Below, one piece after another: positions 56,910 through 64,000 of a stretch of 64,000 bases of DNA (position 1 is the stretch's first letter; every line of letters starts with the position of its first letter). Source of the DNA: Sphingopyxis sp. MWB1 (GTDB lineage Bacteria > Pseudomonadota > Alphaproteobacteria > Sphingomonadales > Sphingomonadaceae); NCBI RefSeq assembly GCF_000763945.1, contig NZ_JQFJ01000002.1, positions 1,488,001 through 1,552,000 of the forward strand. The letters run 5' to 3'. The translations under genes and the position numbers were made by a program. Below the pieces are notes generated by a model, which saw nothing but the letters and a program-made list of their open reading frames with translations, was not told where the DNA came from and ran no database searches.

Positions 56910-58496
56910 TCAGGCGATGGCTGCCGCCACAAAATCCGCCGCACGCTCGCCGATCATGATGCTGGGCGCATTGGTATTGCCGCTGACCAGCCGGGGCATA
57001 ATGCTCGCATCGGCGACCCACAGCCCGTCGATGCCACGCAGCTTCAGCGTCGGATCCACCACGGCGTCCGTATCGCTGCCCATGCGGCAGGTACCGACGG
57101 GGTGATAGACGGTGTCCGCCCGGCTGCGGATCAGCGCGTCGAGCGCCGCATCATCGTCCATATCGACCGGATAGCGGTTGCGCCCCGCATAGTCGGACAG
57201 CGGCGGGGTTTCGACGATCCGGTGCATCATCCGCACGCCTGCGCGCAGGCTGTCCATGTCGCGATCATCGGTCAGAAAGCCGGGGTCAATCGCCGGGGCC
57301 GCCGCGGCATCGGGCGCGGCGAGCCGCACCGTCCCGCGGCTTTCGGGGCGCAGCACACAGGCATGACAGGAAAAGCCATGCCCCTTCACCTTGGTGCGGC
57401 CATGATCTTCCAGCATCGCGGGAACGAAATGATATTGAATATCGGGCACGGGCAGATCGGGCCGCGATTTCCAGAAGCCGCCCGCTTCGGCGAAACAGGT
57501 GGTCATGATTCCGGTGCGCCGCATGCGATGTTCGAAAATCGCCTTCACCATGCGCCATGTCCCGCCCAGACTGTTGCCAATAGGATCGGTCGAGCGCGTT
57601 TCCCAGCTCGAAACATAGTCGATATGGTCTTGCAGATCTTCGCCGACGCGGGCGCGGTCCGCCACAACATCGACCCCCATGTTGCGCAGATGCACGGCGG
57701 GCCCGATGCCGGAGAGCATTAATATCTGCGGGCTGCCAAAGGCCCCCGCTGACAGGATGACACCCGCCCGCGCGTGCAGCCTCTCGTGCCCCGCGCCGCG
57801 CCGGATAATGACGCCGGTCGCGCGCCCTTCTTCTACGACGATTTTTTCCACCAGCGCGCCGGTGCGAATATCCAGATTGGGCTTCCCACGCAGCGGCTCG
57901 ACATAGGCGCGCGCCGCCGACCAGCGCTCGCCGCCCTTTTGCGTGACCTGATAGAGGCCAAAGCCTTCATTATCGCGGCGATTGAAATCATCGGTGCGTG
58001 GCAGTTGCAGCGCGGCCGCGCTTTCGACAAAGCGCCGGCTCGTCACATTGGGCCAGCGCTGGTCGACGACACTGAGCGGGCCGTCGCCGCCATGAAATTC
58101 ATCACCGCCGCGCTCATTGCCCTCGCTACGCTTGAAATAGGGGAGGACGTCGGCATAGCTCCACCCCGCCGCCCCCAGCGCCGCCCACTGATCATAGTCA
58201 AAGGCCGTGCCGCGAATATACAGCATGGCGTTGATCGCGCTCGATCCGCCCAGCCCGCGCCCGCGCGGCTGATACCCCCGCCGTCCGTTCAACCCCTTTT
58301 GCGGCACGGTTTCATATTGCCAGTTCGACGCCTTGGGGATGAAGGGCATCAACCCCGGCGTCTTGACGGCCAGAATATCATTATGCCCCCCCGCCTCGAT
58401 CAGGCAGACGCGCCGCCGCCCGTCCGCCGCAAGCCGTCCCGCCGCCGCGCTGCCCGCGCTGCCGCCACCGATGATGATGATATCAAACTGGTCCAA
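56910..58496 (-). CDS. GMC-family oxidoreductase (choline/alcohol dehydrogenase-like)
   Basis: This is a 528-residue FAD enzyme. The FAD fold is [17 protein letters not shown], followed by [18 protein letters not shown]. The catalytic His and Asn are in [12 protein letters not shown] and [19 protein letters not shown]. These enzymes oxidise alcohols; choline, PEG and long-chain alcohols are typical substrates in sphingomonads. The substrate is not decided. No betaine-aldehyde dehydrogenase is adjacent, which argues against a simple choline-to-betaine role. Confidence 0.9.
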
Positions 58497-58640
58497 TGCC
58501 GCTCTCCCACTGCCCCTTCGGGGGTCTGCTTGTCGCTTACATGAATGTCATCAGCGCGCGAAGCAAGGAGAAGATGGCCGCATGACAGCCCTCGCGCGCC
58601 AAGGCGCGACAGGCGGAACGTCGGGAAAAGCGAGAAGAGA

Positions 58641-58699
58641 TGGAGCCGAGCCGGAATCGAACAACTTAAATTTTCTGATTTGATTACAATCGGTTGTTC
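58641..58699 (-). other. tRNA 3'-end-like fragment, possible attachment site
   Basis: Read on the minus strand, 58641-58662 gives GTTCGATTCCGGCTCGGC-TCCA, which has the T-loop and terminal CCA pattern of a tRNA 3' end. No matching 5' part is present and the acceptor is two bases short, so it is not a working tRNA. Beside it, GAACAAC (58659-58665) and GTTGTTC (58693-58699) form a 7-bp inverted repeat. Such fragments are left where an element integrates into a tRNA 3' end. It lies at the border between core genes and the accessory genes on the right. No other gene is seen in the 58497-58801 gap. Confidence 0.35.
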
Positions 58700-58801
58700 T
58701 GTTACACGTGGCATGGGTGCCCCCAATTAGGCCCCGAGAATTCCTTCCTTCAAAGGTAATCGAACCGGCTCCGGGCACGGCGCAGTAATGGATGCGCGAT
58801 C

Positions 58802-59377
58802 CTACTCCCGATGCGCGAGCGCGACTCTACGACACCGTGCGAGTGCGCGTCCGATATGCTTCTCGACGGCCTTGTTGCTCATGCCAAGTTCGTCGGCGAT
58901 ATTCCGATATGTCATGCCACGCAGGCGGTGCATTAGGAATATGCGCCGGGTCTTTCGTGACAGCGGGCGAAGCGCTCGCCGGAAGGCCCTCCGCAATTCC
59001 ATCGCCTCGACGTGCCGTTCCTGCTCGGGCGCCACGGGTGCATCGCAGGTTTCGTCGAACTGACAAGCGGCGCCTCCCTCGCGCATAATCTTACGCGCTC
59101 GCTCAATCAGCAGATTGTGCGCTATCCGCGCCAAATAGGGGCGCGGATATTCCACCCGATCAAACGCGCCGCTGCGAAGCAGACGCGTGAAAGCTTCCTG
59201 CACAAGATCGGACGCGGCATCAGGCCCGATCCTCCTCCGGAAATAATGAAACAACCACACTCGCTCGGCGCGATAGAAGGTCGCGAAATCATTTCCCGAA
59301 CCGGGCGAGGCAAGAGTTTCCTCCCGTATTCGAACGCCGGAAACGTGTTCGCGTACGACAAATGCGCCCGTCACCAT
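58802..59377 (-). CDS. ECF-type RNA polymerase sigma factor, second of a tandem pair
   Basis: The 191-residue protein has region 2 (FRRRIGPDAASDLVQEAFTRLLR and RPYLARIAHNLLIERARK) and region 4 (LSRKTRRIFLMHRLRGMTYRNIADELGMSNKAVEKHIGRAL). The N-terminus carries about 30 extra residues. It overlaps the preceding sigma gene by seven bases. The pair are clear paralogues. The FecI-like region 4 would suit control of a TonB system, but no fecR or TonB receptor follows. No anti-sigma factor is recognised in the operon. Confidence 0.87.
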   Translation of the reverse strand: MVTGAFVVREHVSGVRIREETLASPGSGNDFATFYRAERVWLFHYFRRRIGPDAASDLVQEAFTRLLRSGAFDRVEYPRPYLARIAHNLLIERARKIMREGGAACQFDETCDAPVAPEQERHVEAMELRRAFRRALRPLSRKTRRIFLMHRLRGMTYRNIADELGMSNKAVEKHIGRALARCRRVALAHRE

Positions 59378-59880
59378 TGCGCGGCGACTACAGCGCGGCA
59401 GCGCGCGAGAGCCCGCACCATATGGTAATCGACGGTCGCGATGCTGATGCCCAGGCCCGCCGCGATCTCCTTATAGCTCATGCGCTTCACCCGGCGCATC
59501 ATGAATACGCGCCGGGTCTTCGGCGGCATGGCGCGAATGGTCTGCCGGTAGAGTCGAAACAGGTCGATCGCTTCGATTCGCCGTGTCTGGTCGGCCCGCG
59601 ACGCCGCGTCACGCTCGTCGTCGAAGGGAAAGAAAATCGGCATGTCGTGCCGTTTCCTGCGCGCGCGATCGATCAGTAGGTTGCGGGTAACCCGCGATAG
59701 ATAGGCGGCCGGGTTATCGACGCGACCCAGCGCCTCGCGGCGCAGAAAGCGCGCGAACACCTCTTGCACCAGATCGGGTGCCTCGTCGGAGCCGACCCTG
59801 CGCCGCAGCTTACGCAACAGGCGCCGATACTCGGTGCGATATAGGTCCTCGAAGGCGGCGGTCGAAGCGGGGGCGGTCAT
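59371..59880 (-). CDS. ECF-type RNA polymerase sigma factor, first of a tandem pair
   Basis: The 169-residue protein has region 2 (RRRVGSDEAPDLVQEVFARFLRRE and AAYLSRVTRNLLIDRARR) and region 4 (MPPKTRRVFMMRRVKRMSYKEIAAGLGISIATVDYHMVRAL). It overlaps the upstream nucleotidyltransferase gene by four bases (ATGA) and the downstream sigma gene by seven, so all three are translationally coupled. The regulator and target promoters are unknown. Confidence 0.87.
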   Translation of the reverse strand: MTAPASTAAFEDLYRTEYRRLLRKLRRRVGSDEAPDLVQEVFARFLRREALGRVDNPAAYLSRVTRNLLIDRARRKRHDMPIFFPFDDERDAASRADQTRRIEAIDLFRLYRQTIRAMPPKTRRVFMMRRVKRMSYKEIAAGLGISIATVDYHMVRALARCRAVVAAQW

Positions 59881-60371
59881 AGCCGCGCTCCCTTGCGTTC
59901 GCGCTCGTTGAGCGGCGCATCGCGCGAGGCCCGGTAAAGGGTGATGCCTGCTTCGATCCGGTCGAGGATGAAAGTGTCACCCTCGGCCTTGGCAATGCGA
60001 ATGTCGGCGCGGGAATAGAGTTCGAGGCTGACCGCGCAGCGATCGCCAAGCTCGCTGCCGATGATTTCGCGGGCGCGCCTCCAGCAACATTCCTCTTTGA
60101 AGAGCGGGTGATTGACGACGATCCACAGTTCGTAATCGGAAAAGTTGATCGTCTTTTCGTCTTCGTACCAAGATCGTCGCGCATAGGGGCCGATCAGGAT
60201 GATCCGCCTGATCTGCCCCGGTTCGGGGGCCTGCACCTGATCGGGATCGAAGAAAGCGCGCAGGATGCGCGTGATCCGCTCGATCTCACCCTGCTTGCGG
60301 CGGATGAGATGGTCGACGCGCGTCATCACGACTTCGCGCGCGTAGAAGTCCTTCGGTTTGGGGAGTGTCAT
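59877..60371 (-). CDS. Degenerate nucleotidyltransferase (MNT-like) fold protein
   Basis: This is 164 residues from the ATG at 60371. The segment ILIGPYARRSWYEDEK...INFSDYELWIVVNH aligns with the ILFGSYARGDW...SDYDILVIVS of the MNT domain in the nucleotidyltransferase-HEPN protein at the right end of this window. The substrate Ser of the GS motif is Pro62 here, and the second catalytic Asp is Glu81 (SDYE), so activity is probably lost or changed. The HEPN half is missing. It heads an overlapping operon with two sigma factors, so a sensor or anti-sigma-like role is conceivable. Confidence 0.68.
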   Translation of the reverse strand: MTLPKPKDFYAREVVMTRVDHLIRRKQGEIERITRILRAFFDPDQVQAPEPGQIRRIILIGPYARRSWYEDEKTINFSDYELWIVVNHPLFKEECCWRRAREIIGSELGDRCAVSLELYSRADIRIAKAEGDTFILDRIEAGITLYRASRDAPLNERERKGARL

Positions 60372-60696
60372 TTGCAGCTCGCACAGCGGCGGTCCGCGCC
60401 ATCGTGCGCGGGTGTGCAAGCGGTGTCCGCTGCGCGCCGCCAATGCGGTCTACAGCAACTGCCCGACCCTCGGCCGGACCTGCATGATGCTGGCAGGATA
60501 ATCCTCGGGATGGCCGCCAGTCATTCCATCCCGTGCGCGAGATCATGCCATTTTCTGAACGTTCCGGCAAGCGAGGCGTAAACGATGATGCCCCTCCACG
60601 GTCCGGATGGCGAATATTCACGCTTGCAGGGCAAAACACTTTAAGATAAACACAAAAATGTGCAGTGCAGGAAAAACGTTGAAGGGCTGGAATCGC
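60372..60696. other. Divergent intergenic region in the accessory island
   Basis: No gene was found. The left half is GC-rich like the sigma operon. The right half, from about 60600, is AT-richer, matching the following gene. A Cys-containing short frame around 60415-60500 is too short to support. Confidence 0.4.
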
Positions 60697-61374
60697 ATGG
60701 ACGCTTACGAGCTATTGAAAGCAACGGCCAGCGGGATGATCGTGCGCGACATACCGATGGCATTCTGGTCAGACCTGCGCGCTTTGACGGTCATCGCCTA
60801 TGCAGATGCATTCGCTGAAGTTGACGCAGACAAGACCGTTCTGCCCGACCAAAAGATCGATGACCTTCTGCAGCGTCGGCATTTCAAGATGGAGAAGCTG
60901 ATTGTCGATCTCGCAGTTAGGCATGGTCTTTCGCATTCGATGAGCCTCATCGTTCAGAACAACCGCCGCCATGCCTATGTGTTCAAGGGTGACGTAGCGA
61001 TGACGCAGTCTTACGTTCAGGCTATCGGCATGATGCCGCAGCCAGCGAAATTTCGCGAGCGGCTTGCCAACTCGATGGACTTGCCTCGTCTCGATCTTGG
61101 CGACGAGCCGGACGGCGCGTTTCTGATGCCGACGCTGTATGGGCTAATCGCCCACAATCCGGTAGGACGTCGCTTCCGCGCCGATGAACAAAAGTTGGGC
61201 ATGATCCAGTTTTGCCTTCCTGCTGCGGACTGCCGCGCGTGGGCTGTAGAATTTGCGATAGCCGAAATTTTGGATGCTTACCCTGCAACGCCGAAAAAGG
61301 ACGCTCCGAAGCGGTCCATGCCCTGGAAGACGCCGAAGCGTGATGGCGATACTGGGACGGACGGCAAAAAGTGA
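60697..61374 (+). CDS. Protein of unknown function coupled to the XRE/ImmA-IrrE protein
   Basis: This is 225 residues from the ATG at 60697 (MDAYELLKATASGMIVRDIPM). I recognise no domain. The N-terminal half is helical, and an acidic tail region gives way to a Lys/Asp-rich C-terminus (PKKDAPKRSMPWKTPKRDGDTGTD). Composition is more AT-rich than the chromosomal genes. Its stop overlaps the GTG start of the metallopeptidase gene (GTGA), the usual layout of a toxin-antitoxin or protease-substrate pair. It may be the partner or target of that protein. Confidence 0.7.
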   Translation: MDAYELLKATASGMIVRDIPMAFWSDLRALTVIAYADAFAEVDADKTVLPDQKIDDLLQRRHFKMEKLIVDLAVRHGLSHSMSLIVQNNRRHAYVFKGDVAMTQSYVQAIGMMPQPAKFRERLANSMDLPRLDLGDEPDGAFLMPTLYGLIAHNPVGRRFRADEQKLGMIQFCLPAADCRAWAVEFAIAEILDAYPATPKKDAPKRSMPWKTPKRDGDTGTDGKK

Positions 61375-62558
61375 GTGTAATTGCACAAGGTTTTGTTGGG
61401 GAACGTCTGACCGAAGCGCGAATGGCGCTTGGCATCAGCGCGACGGTGTTTGCCGATTTAGTTGACCTGAGCGTCCAATCCGTATCGAAGTATGAAAATG
61501 GCCGGCAAACGCCAAAGCTAGATGGCGTTCACAAGTTCGCTGCAATTCTCAAGGTTCCTTACGATTACTTCTTTCGCCCAATGGTTACAAAGGATGAAAA
61601 GCCGATTTTTTGGCGCGCGCGCCTGTCAGCGCCGCCGTCCGCACGTGATCGAGCGGAAGTTCGTCTCGAATGGATGAAAGAGGTTGTCGATTATCTTGCG
61701 TCGTATTTCGACCTTCCCGCGCTCCACGTCCCTCGTTTCGATTTCTCCGAAGAGAGTTTCGGTAACTCCGATTTTATAGAGCGCGTGGCTCGCGAGATTA
61801 GGGAGTACTGGGACATTCGGCCTGGCCCAATGCCGGACACCATCGAACAACTCGAAACCAATGGCATACTGGTATCCCGTATCCATGTTCGCGCCGACAA
61901 GCTGGATGCGTTTTCACAATGGTCGGATCGTTTCAATGTGCCATTTGTGATGCTGTCGCGCGACAAGGCCAGCGCCTGCCGCCAGCGGTTCGACGTGCTG
62001 CACGAATTAGTCCACATCGCCTGCCACGCCAATGTCTCGCATAAGCGGTTGAATGATCGAGCCTTCTACAAGGCGATTGAGAAGCAGGCCGATCAAATCG
62101 CATCGGCCATGTTGCTGCCAGAAGCAGAGTTCGTCGGCGAACTCTACGCTCCTTCGCTGGACGGGTTTTTGACCCTGAAGGAACGCTGGGGGGCGTCTGT
62201 TGCCGCCATGATTATGCGCAGCAAGCAGCTCGATCTTATAGATGACGATGATGCGCGGCGCCTCTGGATAAACTACAATCGCCGCGGCTGGCGCAACGGC
62301 GAGCCACTGGATGGAAAACTCGAAAAGGAAGAACCTCACCTAATTCGACGCAGCTTCGAGCTTCTCATGGAAGAAGGTGTGCAATCGGCTTCTCAAATCG
62401 TGAAAGCTCTCCCGTTCCCGACAGCTGACTTGGAAGAGTTGGCGGACCTAGAGCCGGGAGCCCTTTCGGGAGAAACTCAATCTCGCGCTGCACCAATCTT
62501 GAAGGACGAGTTTCGTCAAGATTCCAATGTGGTGAGTATTTTCGGGAGAAAGGGCTAG
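61371..62558 (+). CDS. XRE-family HTH and ImmA/IrrE metallopeptidase fusion protein
   Basis: The 395-residue protein has an N-terminal helix-turn-helix (residues 5-65, ERLTEARMALGISATVFADLVDLSVQSVSKYENGRQTPKL) and a central zinc-peptidase domain with the HExxH motif in DVLHELVHIACH near residue 207. ATP is not needed by this family. The C-terminus has helical repeats. ImmA/IrrE proteins cleave repressors or regulate DNA-damage and phage responses. The fusion to XRE, with an upstream coupled partner of unknown function, resembles phage-defence toxin-antitoxin pairs such as RosmerTA as I recall them. The GTG start overlaps the partner stop. Confidence 0.88.
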   Translation: MSVIAQGFVGERLTEARMALGISATVFADLVDLSVQSVSKYENGRQTPKLDGVHKFAAILKVPYDYFFRPMVTKDEKPIFWRARLSAPPSARDRAEVRLEWMKEVVDYLASYFDLPALHVPRFDFSEESFGNSDFIERVAREIREYWDIRPGPMPDTIEQLETNGILVSRIHVRADKLDAFSQWSDRFNVPFVMLSRDKASACRQRFDVLHELVHIACHANVSHKRLNDRAFYKAIEKQADQIASAMLLPEAEFVGELYAPSLDGFLTLKERWGASVAAMIMRSKQLDLIDDDDARRLWINYNRRGWRNGEPLDGKLEKEEPHLIRRSFELLMEEGVQSASQIVKALPFPTADLEELADLEPGALSGETQSRAAPILKDEFRQDSNVVSIFGRKG

Positions 62559-63113: not shown

Positions 63114-64000
63114 TTATGTGCGGGCGGCCCTTTCCAGTTCCACGATCTTGTCGGAGCAGACCCGATGCACAACGCGGCTGAGTTCTTCGATGCGCTCCCC
63201 GAGCCAGATCAGTTCCTCTTCGCTGATCCGGTAATGTTTTGAATATCGTGCCTTCGTGTATGCTTCTTTCAGTTTTTGAAACATCGCGCGCTCAGCACGA
63301 TTGGTCTCGGGCCAAACACCGTGCAGCCGACGGTCGAGTCCTTCGGCAAGCGAACGCAGGAAGGCGATATTGTGGTTGTATGGGGTGTAGTAGGTCAGTG
63401 TGAGAAGGAGGCCTGAATATAAGCGTTCGGCTGCCTGGTGCAGTAAGAAGGCGGCTTCCTTGGGACGTTTCTGCTTCGTTAAATCCCGCGACGTATTCAA
63501 CCACACGACCGCTCCGGGGTAGTAATCCTCGAAGTATTCCTTCGCTGCCGCGAGAGCCTGCTTTGGCGTTTTGGGTTTGGGCGTTGCCAGTTCCCGATCA
63601 TCCGCTTCGTAAAGAGCAATCCCGTCTTTCGCGACCTCCATGAAGAAGACGCGGCCATGCGCGAGTCCGTCATTCACCTCATGCAGCGAATGGACGATGA
63701 AGTTGACGGGCGTTGGAAGCGTTTTCTCGATCGTATAGGCCCGGATCAACCGCTCCTCGGCCTTCGCCCAGTAGGCGGCACGATCGGTCAACTCTTTCTG
63801 GCTGACGATGACGAGGATGTCATAGTCGGATTTATACTGGTTCGCCGATGCGGGCGCATCGACCCAATCGCCGCGCGCATAGCTACCGAACAGGATGATT
63901 TTGAGGATGCGGGCGCCCTTTCGCGGGCCGGTCGCATTTTCCGTAGCCGCACCGAATTCGTCGAAGATGATCGCGACGATGCGCTCAAGCTCGCGCTGCT
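63114..64000 (-). CDS. Nucleotidyltransferase-HEPN fusion protein (start outside the window)
   Basis: The frame continues past the right edge; at least 294 residues are visible. The MNT nucleotidyltransferase part shows ILFGSYARGDW and SDYDILVIV, with the catalytic Gly-Ser and Asp-x-Asp kept. The C-terminal HEPN part has AAFLLHQAAERLYSGLLLTL and ends with the ARYSKHYRI region. A shorter frame beginning at a TTG at 63791 is only a fragment of this gene. MNT and HEPN domains, together or as partners, form toxin-antitoxin modules in many bacteria. Here they are fused in one chain and followed by two small genes. Confidence 0.85.
   Translation of the reverse strand, partial: QRELERIVAIIFDEFGAATENATGPRKGARILKIILFGSYARGDWVDAPASANQYKSDYDILVIVSQKELTDRAAYWAKAEERLIRAYTIEKTLPTPVNFIVHSLHEVNDGLAHGRVFFMEVAKDGIALYEADDRELATPKPKTPKQALAAAKEYFEDYYPGAVVWLNTSRDLTKQKRPKEAAFLLHQAAERLYSGLLLTLTYYTPYNHNIAFLRSLAEGLDRRLHGVWPETNRAERAMFQKLKEAYTKARYSKHYRISEEELIWLGERIEELSRVVHRVCSDKIVELERAART

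Follow-up and report, generated by a model that had tools for sequence, protein, structure and literature searches.

The control of ECF sigma factors is usually explained by a partner that acts on the protein, and in FecI-FecR-TonB receptor systems the ECF sigma factor is accompanied by a membrane partner. MNT and HEPN proteins are known from HepT-MntA, a type VII toxin-antitoxin system, in which MNT proteins neutralise HEPN proteins and the characteristic motifs are GSX10DXD in MNT and RX4HXY in HEPN (PMC7641770).

Sequence comparison establishes, at the level of predicted genes and RNA, a mobile module of the Sphingomonadaceae that consists of a fused MNT-HEPN gene and of an operon with a sigma70-like promoter, a structured leader RNA, a translationally coupled gene for an MNT-only protein and one or two FecI-like sigma genes. 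The module resembles HepT-MntA in that a single mobile unit carries both an MNT-fold and a HEPN protein, but its HEPN is fused to an MNT domain of its own, and an ECF sigma factor and an RNA leader are added. The two HepT-MntA motifs were not found: the MNT-only protein reads GPX16DXE, the fused MNT-HEPN protein of locus L044 reads GSX18DXD, and the module HEPN reads RYSKHY or similar (RX3HY). Compared with FecI-FecR systems, the sigma factors of the module are FecI-like and group beside FecR-paired sigmas, and the core of the leader is held in common, but neither FecR nor a receptor lies beside the MNT-sigma operon, and an MNT-only gene precedes the sigma gene.

The window, a stretch of 64,000 nucleotides from Sphingopyxis sp. 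MWB1, carries the following operon.

59877..60371, minus strand: MNT-only protein, 164 aa (MNT homology, AlphaFold model, structural neighbours)
59371..59880, minus strand: ECF sigma factor 1, 169 aa (4-base ATGA overlap with the MNT gene)
58802..59377, minus strand: ECF sigma factor 2, 191 aa (7-base overlap with sigma 1)

Re-inspection found the three ORFs, their order and the 4- and 7-base overlaps as an earlier sequence-only reading had described them. That reading also called two ECF sigma factors, and both proteins score above the Pfam cut-offs for Sigma70_r2 and Sigma70_r4_2 and reach 77.6 and 81.0 bits with the ECF superfamily model TIGR02937 (cut-off 42.9). Both have sigma70 regions 2 and 4 without region 3, which is the domain composition of an ECF sigma factor. 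None of the FecI equivalog models reached its cut-off for either protein. As had been reported, no FecR or TonB receptor accompanies the operon (none by Pfam among nine neighbouring proteins scanned). The own genome, of 3.1 Mb, contains six FecR genes, none of them within 200 kb of either module copy; the second MNT copy is L044. The nearest named locus is L005 of Sphingopyxis terrae, with an MNT protein 93% identical. While the gene layout of the sequence-only reading stands, the leader RNA and the fused MNT-HEPN gene had been overlooked.

The MNT-only protein has no Pfam match above cut-off and no NCBIfam match, and its sequence can be aligned to the MNT part of MNT-HEPN proteins. An AlphaFold model built on an alignment of 33 diverse rows has a pLDDT of 85.7 and was used in place of a model from 18 near-identical rows, which reached just 44.4. 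Minimal nucleotidyltransferases, MNT antitoxins included, are among the best structural neighbours of the model in VIA-align; a Foldseek search against the PDB returned nothing at E<=0.001, the best match (7.3e-3) being an MntA chain. The MNT fold is therefore assigned from VIA-align, homology and model confidence taken together, and agrees with the fold first proposed from the letters. In the active site, GS is changed to GP and DxD to DxE, both invariant in 24/24 relatives, while the third acidic position is D in 17/24 and S in the protein of the window. Since G-P and D-x-E are invariant, the altered site is a signature of the family and does not point to decay. The loss of the catalytic Ser and of one Asp, as first noted, is right in part; a HEPN half is lacking from the MNT-only protein itself, but a fused MNT-HEPN gene lies upstream in 22/24 loci. 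Another variant of the family, an MNT protein of 285-295 aa with a helical C-terminal part, is found in L059, L060, P0222 and P0235; in L059 and L060 its gene is followed by an MNT-only gene with a 4-base overlap.

A protein search with MNT retrieved 539 relatives, of which the best 120 are 77-95% identical. Some MNT match is present in 74 of 298 family genomes, and a copy of at least 60% identity in eleven, the own genome included; the remaining matches are mostly longer MNT-HEPN-like proteins with 30-44% identity. The comparison was made on 24 MNT loci of at least 60% identity, comprising the window, nine contigs (some from MAGs) and 14 further loci including L044; L045, which repeats the window, and L059-L061 (<60%) fall outside this set. 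A full ECF sigma gene lies directly behind MNT in 20/24 loci and a gene for a protein with sigma region 4 only (sigma-4) in three (L012, L055, L056). At L058 no sigma gene lies directly behind MNT, and a sigma-like gene occurs about 0.9 kb upstream. The MNT and sigma genes overlap in the ATGA manner in most of the 24 loci. Because a sigma or sigma-4 gene follows MNT in 23/24 loci and a second full sigma gene is found in just four (the window, L005, L008 and L044), gene order indicates that MNT-sigma is the conserved unit and that the second sigma is optional. Seven further MNT-only loci outside the 24, found via the leader (L143-L147, L228, L229), all have a sigma gene behind MNT. Of the three-gene operon first proposed, the MNT-sigma order is thus widespread and the second sigma is confined to four loci; neither an order unique to the strain nor sigma genes paired with fecR and devoid of MNT, the two outcomes that were to count against it, was encountered for the MNT-linked sigmas. 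Compared with S. terrae, dN/dS is 0.185 for MNT, 0.197 for sigma 1 and 0.205 for sigma 2. With MNT and sigma joined as one query, no fusion protein covering both was found among the best 120 of 167 matches, where the highest coverage is 58%; P0121, which ranks first, joins sigma 1 to a broken sigma 2 and was rejected as an MNT-sigma fusion.

About 230 bases are conserved 5' of MNT and comprise a sigma70-like promoter followed by a leader that extends to the MNT start codon. The features of this region are as follows.

60542..60570, minus strand: sigma70-like promoter (-35 TTGCCG at 60565-60570, 17-nt spacer, -10 CATGAT at 60542-60547)
60372..60535, minus strand: leader RNA of about 165 nt (alignment and fold; inferred 5' end)
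60459..60534, minus strand: leader core common to FecI-type sigma operons (match of 83.6 bits to the covariance model R2 described below; covariation)
60526-60532 with 60507-60513, minus strand: stem P1
from 60516-60520, minus strand: pseudoknot
60461-60479, minus strand: stem P3
60425-60459, minus strand: stem P4
60377-60421, minus strand: stem P5

The loci differ by short insertions that change the reading frame, so the leader is not a conserved coding region. The leader is present in 22/24 loci (21 aligned, plus L051). At L012 the contig ends inside the leader, and L058, the sole locus of the 24 without a sigma-type gene behind MNT, lacks it. The fold of 21 leaders contains 42 pairs. P5 is known from the leaders of MNT operons alone, and no pair in it shows a double change in the 21 sequences. 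The leader shares with riboswitches and other structured leaders a promoter just before it, covarying stems, a pseudoknot and a position before regulated genes, but it has no Rfam match and serves ECF sigma genes. No Rfam 15 family covered the leader in a search of positions 58400-61000 at E<=5, in L005, L006, L007, L044, L047 and L052 at the gathering threshold, or in L144, L153, L161, L165, L166 and L167 at E<=0.5. A NiCo match outside the leader (58907-58988; 23.8 bits against a gathering score of 37) was taken as chance.

The same RNA was found before other sigma genes of the family. A covariance model (R1) built from 21 MNT-operon leaders alone gave 39 matches in 28 of 397 family genomes, and each of the 20 matches outside MNT-only operons is followed by a sigma gene, in many cases with FecR; at one of these 20, L152, it is a lone sigma-4 gene that comes after another ORF. 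A model of the core (R2), made from 18 cores including 10 from R1 sites outside MNT-only operons, matched 80 places at E<=0.03, spread over 58 of the 397 genomes. Every R2 match of at least 33.8 bits (59/59) is upstream of a sigma or sigma-4 gene. These 59 comprise 42 fetched loci, 14 known MNT loci (sigma in 12, sigma-4 in two) and three near-identical copies, all with sigma. All 42 fetched loci have a sigma ORF downstream, which starts within about 190 nt in 36, behind an MNT-only gene in five and 752 nt away in L152; FecR is present in 25, MNT-only in five and neither in 12. Below 33.8 bits, sigma was found in 0/18 of the matches examined, of 21. TonB receptor genes lie downstream in all five leader loci scanned (L149, L153, L160, L161, L166). 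The two MNT operons are the sole R2 matches in the own genome. A later scan of 246 genomes of the order produced 13 matches from previously unseen genomes, 12 of which precede sigma; L237, the one that does not, is also the sole match from outside the family. Errors occur near the threshold, where L240 (31.8 bits) and L239 (33.3) precede sigma and L237 (34.1) does not. L149, L153 and their kin form a clade of leader-bearing sigmas without FecR, with the order sigma, TonB receptor and then an ORF of 617-619 aa, which in L149 has no Pfam match.

Among 57 cores aligned to R2, 86.5% of cells are paired against 33.0-56.0% in slid controls; the alignment was fitted to the model and so favours R2's own structure. 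Double changes number 136, the controls having 29-43, and at least one is present in 17 of 18 pairs. The pseudoknot between CUGGC in the P1 loop and GCCAG pairs in 93.1% of cells with five double changes (alignment A5); some FecI-type leaders have mispairs in it. A -10-like hexamer stands 10-20 nt before the core in 29/32 leaders outside MNT operons against 3/32 in the control window, so the RNA probably starts at P1. In a simple scan, terminator-like hairpins behind the core were detected in just 3/42 loci. Attenuation is hence not generally supported, and control of translation or stability is favoured. Overall, the leader is very probably a real structured RNA.

The evolutionary relationships of the sigma factors were examined with a tree of 66 rows, 59 of them different, in which eight long branches were flagged. 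The 30 MNT-linked sigma rows form one clade (100/99) among FecI-like sigmas, and this clade sits beside leader-bearing sigmas both with and without FecR. By this phylogeny, the sigma and the leader of the module share descent with FecI-type operons. The simplest reading would be a single capture of a FecI-like sigma with its leader, with FecR lost and MNT gained. MNT-HEPN genes also lie directly before leader-sigma-FecR operons in L231 and L239, and in L159, L162 and L163 they stand divergently beside such an operon together with a sigma-4-like ORF. Among 21 other MNT or MNT-HEPN loci, a sigma-4 ORF occurs within 1.5 kb in seven and is adjacent in five. As far as gene neighbourhoods indicate, the link between MNT/HEPN and sigma is wider than the MNT-linked clade.

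We tentatively propose a mechanism in which the leader gates coupled translation and MNT controls sigma, a reading held with somewhat less than even confidence. P5 would cover the bases immediately ahead of the MNT start codon and gate MNT translation, and the ATGA overlap would extend the gating to sigma by translational coupling. MNT, with its altered active site, would be a cytoplasmic partner that restrains or licenses sigma; it would do the job of FecR without a membrane signal and might couple sigma to a nucleotide or to the MNT-HEPN protein and its state. Once free, sigma would switch on genes of the module or the host. This mechanism is suggested by the MNT-sigma order in 23/24 loci with ATGA-type overlap in most, by dN/dS values of 0.19-0.21 for MNT and both sigmas, by a leader found in 22/24 loci and absent from the sigma-less L058, by the covariation of the leader and the position of its strong core matches (59/59, later 12/13) upstream of sigma, by the grouping of MNT-linked sigmas in one clade beside leader-bearing FecI sigmas, and by MNT-HEPN genes adjoining other leader-sigma-FecR operons and sigma-4 ORFs near 7/21 MNT loci. 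Against it stand the lack of an MNT-sigma fusion among the best 120 of 167 matches, the lack of double changes in P5, and L058, which keeps MNT without sigma directly behind.

The remaining genes of the module and its insert were located upstream of the leader.

63114..64000, minus strand: fused MNT-HEPN gene (runs past the window end, with a likely ATG about 31 bases beyond; full ORF in L045)
61371..62558, plus strand: RmrA-like gene with HTH and M78 peptidase domains (PADLOC RmrA 4.7e-113; HTH_3, Peptidase_M78)
60607..61374, plus strand: RmrT-like gene (PADLOC RmrT 3.5e-14)

HEPN and NTP_transf_2 score above the Pfam cut-offs in the three module MNT-HEPN proteins scanned. MNT-HEPN is upstream of MNT on the same strand in 22/24 loci, at less than 240 nt in 13 and at 0.6-8 kb in nine; it was not seen at L012 (contig end) or L058. 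An element CTTGCYAA-N12..18-GAAGAWTC stands directly before the module MNT-HEPN start (e.g. G000:C2:9814-9845). It has 12 exact matches in 9/12 genomes, located by coordinates at the MNT-HEPN starts of modules; none lies elsewhere in the 12 genomes, and it was not seen before the stand-alone MNT-HEPN genes examined. This promoter-like element may be an ordinary sigma70 site. Residues ~171-190 of module MNT-HEPN proteins, at the start of HEPN (e.g. L044:8886-9806), form a hypervariable stretch with a majority fraction of 0.39-0.51 against at least 0.74 in other ten-residue blocks (19 rows), and near-identical versions of it occur in distant loci, as if swapped by recombination.

The proximity of MNT-HEPN allows a different reading, in which the MNT-only protein is an antitoxin-type accessory subunit of MNT-HEPN and does not act on sigma, which would merely activate transcription of the module like the DNA-binding regulators of toxin-antitoxin operons. 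The upstream MNT-HEPN gene in 22/24 loci, its conserved promoter-like element and the neutralisation of HEPN by MNT in HepT-MntA (PMC7641770) all speak for it. We nevertheless regard it as rather unlikely: MNT-only is always accompanied by sigma or sigma-4 where the leader is present, MNT-HEPN can be several kb off or divergent, and HEPN lacks RX4HXY as MNT-only lacks GSX10DXD. The control of sigma by MNT is retained as the preferred reading.

The RmrT-RmrA pair of the window lies on the opposite strand between MNT-HEPN and the leader. At this position L057 carries RmrA, RmrT and a PD-T4-9_A-like gene, L055 a double-GTPase conflict system and L008 a MerR regulator; other inserts gave no family match. 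Since conflict-type genes occur there also in L055 and L057, this slot looks like an insertion hotspot. The link of the module to defence comes from its neighbourhood alone, and phage sensing, which the sequence-only reading had offered as one role, is a guess from the neighbours. The same reading had placed the operon in an accessory island, and mobile surroundings were indeed observed: a gene of a relaxase-helicase cluster, one member of which is MobA_MobL, lies within ~8 kb in 13/28 oriented loci, and genes for ParB, a serine recombinase, a phage integrase and a coupling protein are also found near modules. In PLSDB, 285 plasmid records match MNT, all below 60% identity, and a phage search with MNT gave one weak match. 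On the minus strand, positions 58642-58662 resemble the 3' end of a tRNA and may be what is left of an old att site at the island edge; the sequence was found once in the genome (<=2 mismatches), without the second copy of an att site. These surroundings could mean that the MNT-sigma unit regulates transfer or excision of its carrier element and is unrelated to defence, as the relaxase-helicase, ParB, recombinase, integrase and coupling-protein genes would suggest. However, the carriers vary between loci without a constant set of neighbours, and no PLSDB record has an MNT of at least 60% identity, and we consider this role improbable. That a FecI-type sigma and its leader were captured beside an MNT gene and hitch-hike as a relic without shared function is very unlikely, for although they share descent with FecI-type operons and both FecR and MNT-only are missing from 12/42 fetched leader loci, different genera have kept the junction and the gene order, and dN/dS values of 0.19-0.21 show that MNT and both sigmas are constrained.

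The leader-gated, MNT-controlled sigma may belong to a larger picture, which we put forward more cautiously still: in the Sphingomonadaceae an undescribed class of leader RNA, either a riboswitch or a sigma-bound RNA, would gate the synthesis of ECF sigmas, and the MNT/HEPN module would have captured it, with MNT replacing FecR and an intracellular nucleotide or attack signal reprogramming transcription. In the portion of the open-licence PMC literature covered, no paper was found that describes the pairing of MNT with an ECF sigma, or this leader. Taken singly, the ECF sigma, the MNT protein and the structured leader each belong to a known kind; as far as that portion goes, their combination and the RNA family appear new. 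The RNA is the best supported and most directly testable part. Many sigma operons begin with a conserved RNA that has a core of about 80 nt, and this RNA would provide a point of control that acts ahead of translation. If the proposed mechanism is true, sigma factors would have a new type of partner in the MNT-fold protein that stands in for FecR, and HEPN/MNT conflict modules would be linked to transcription.
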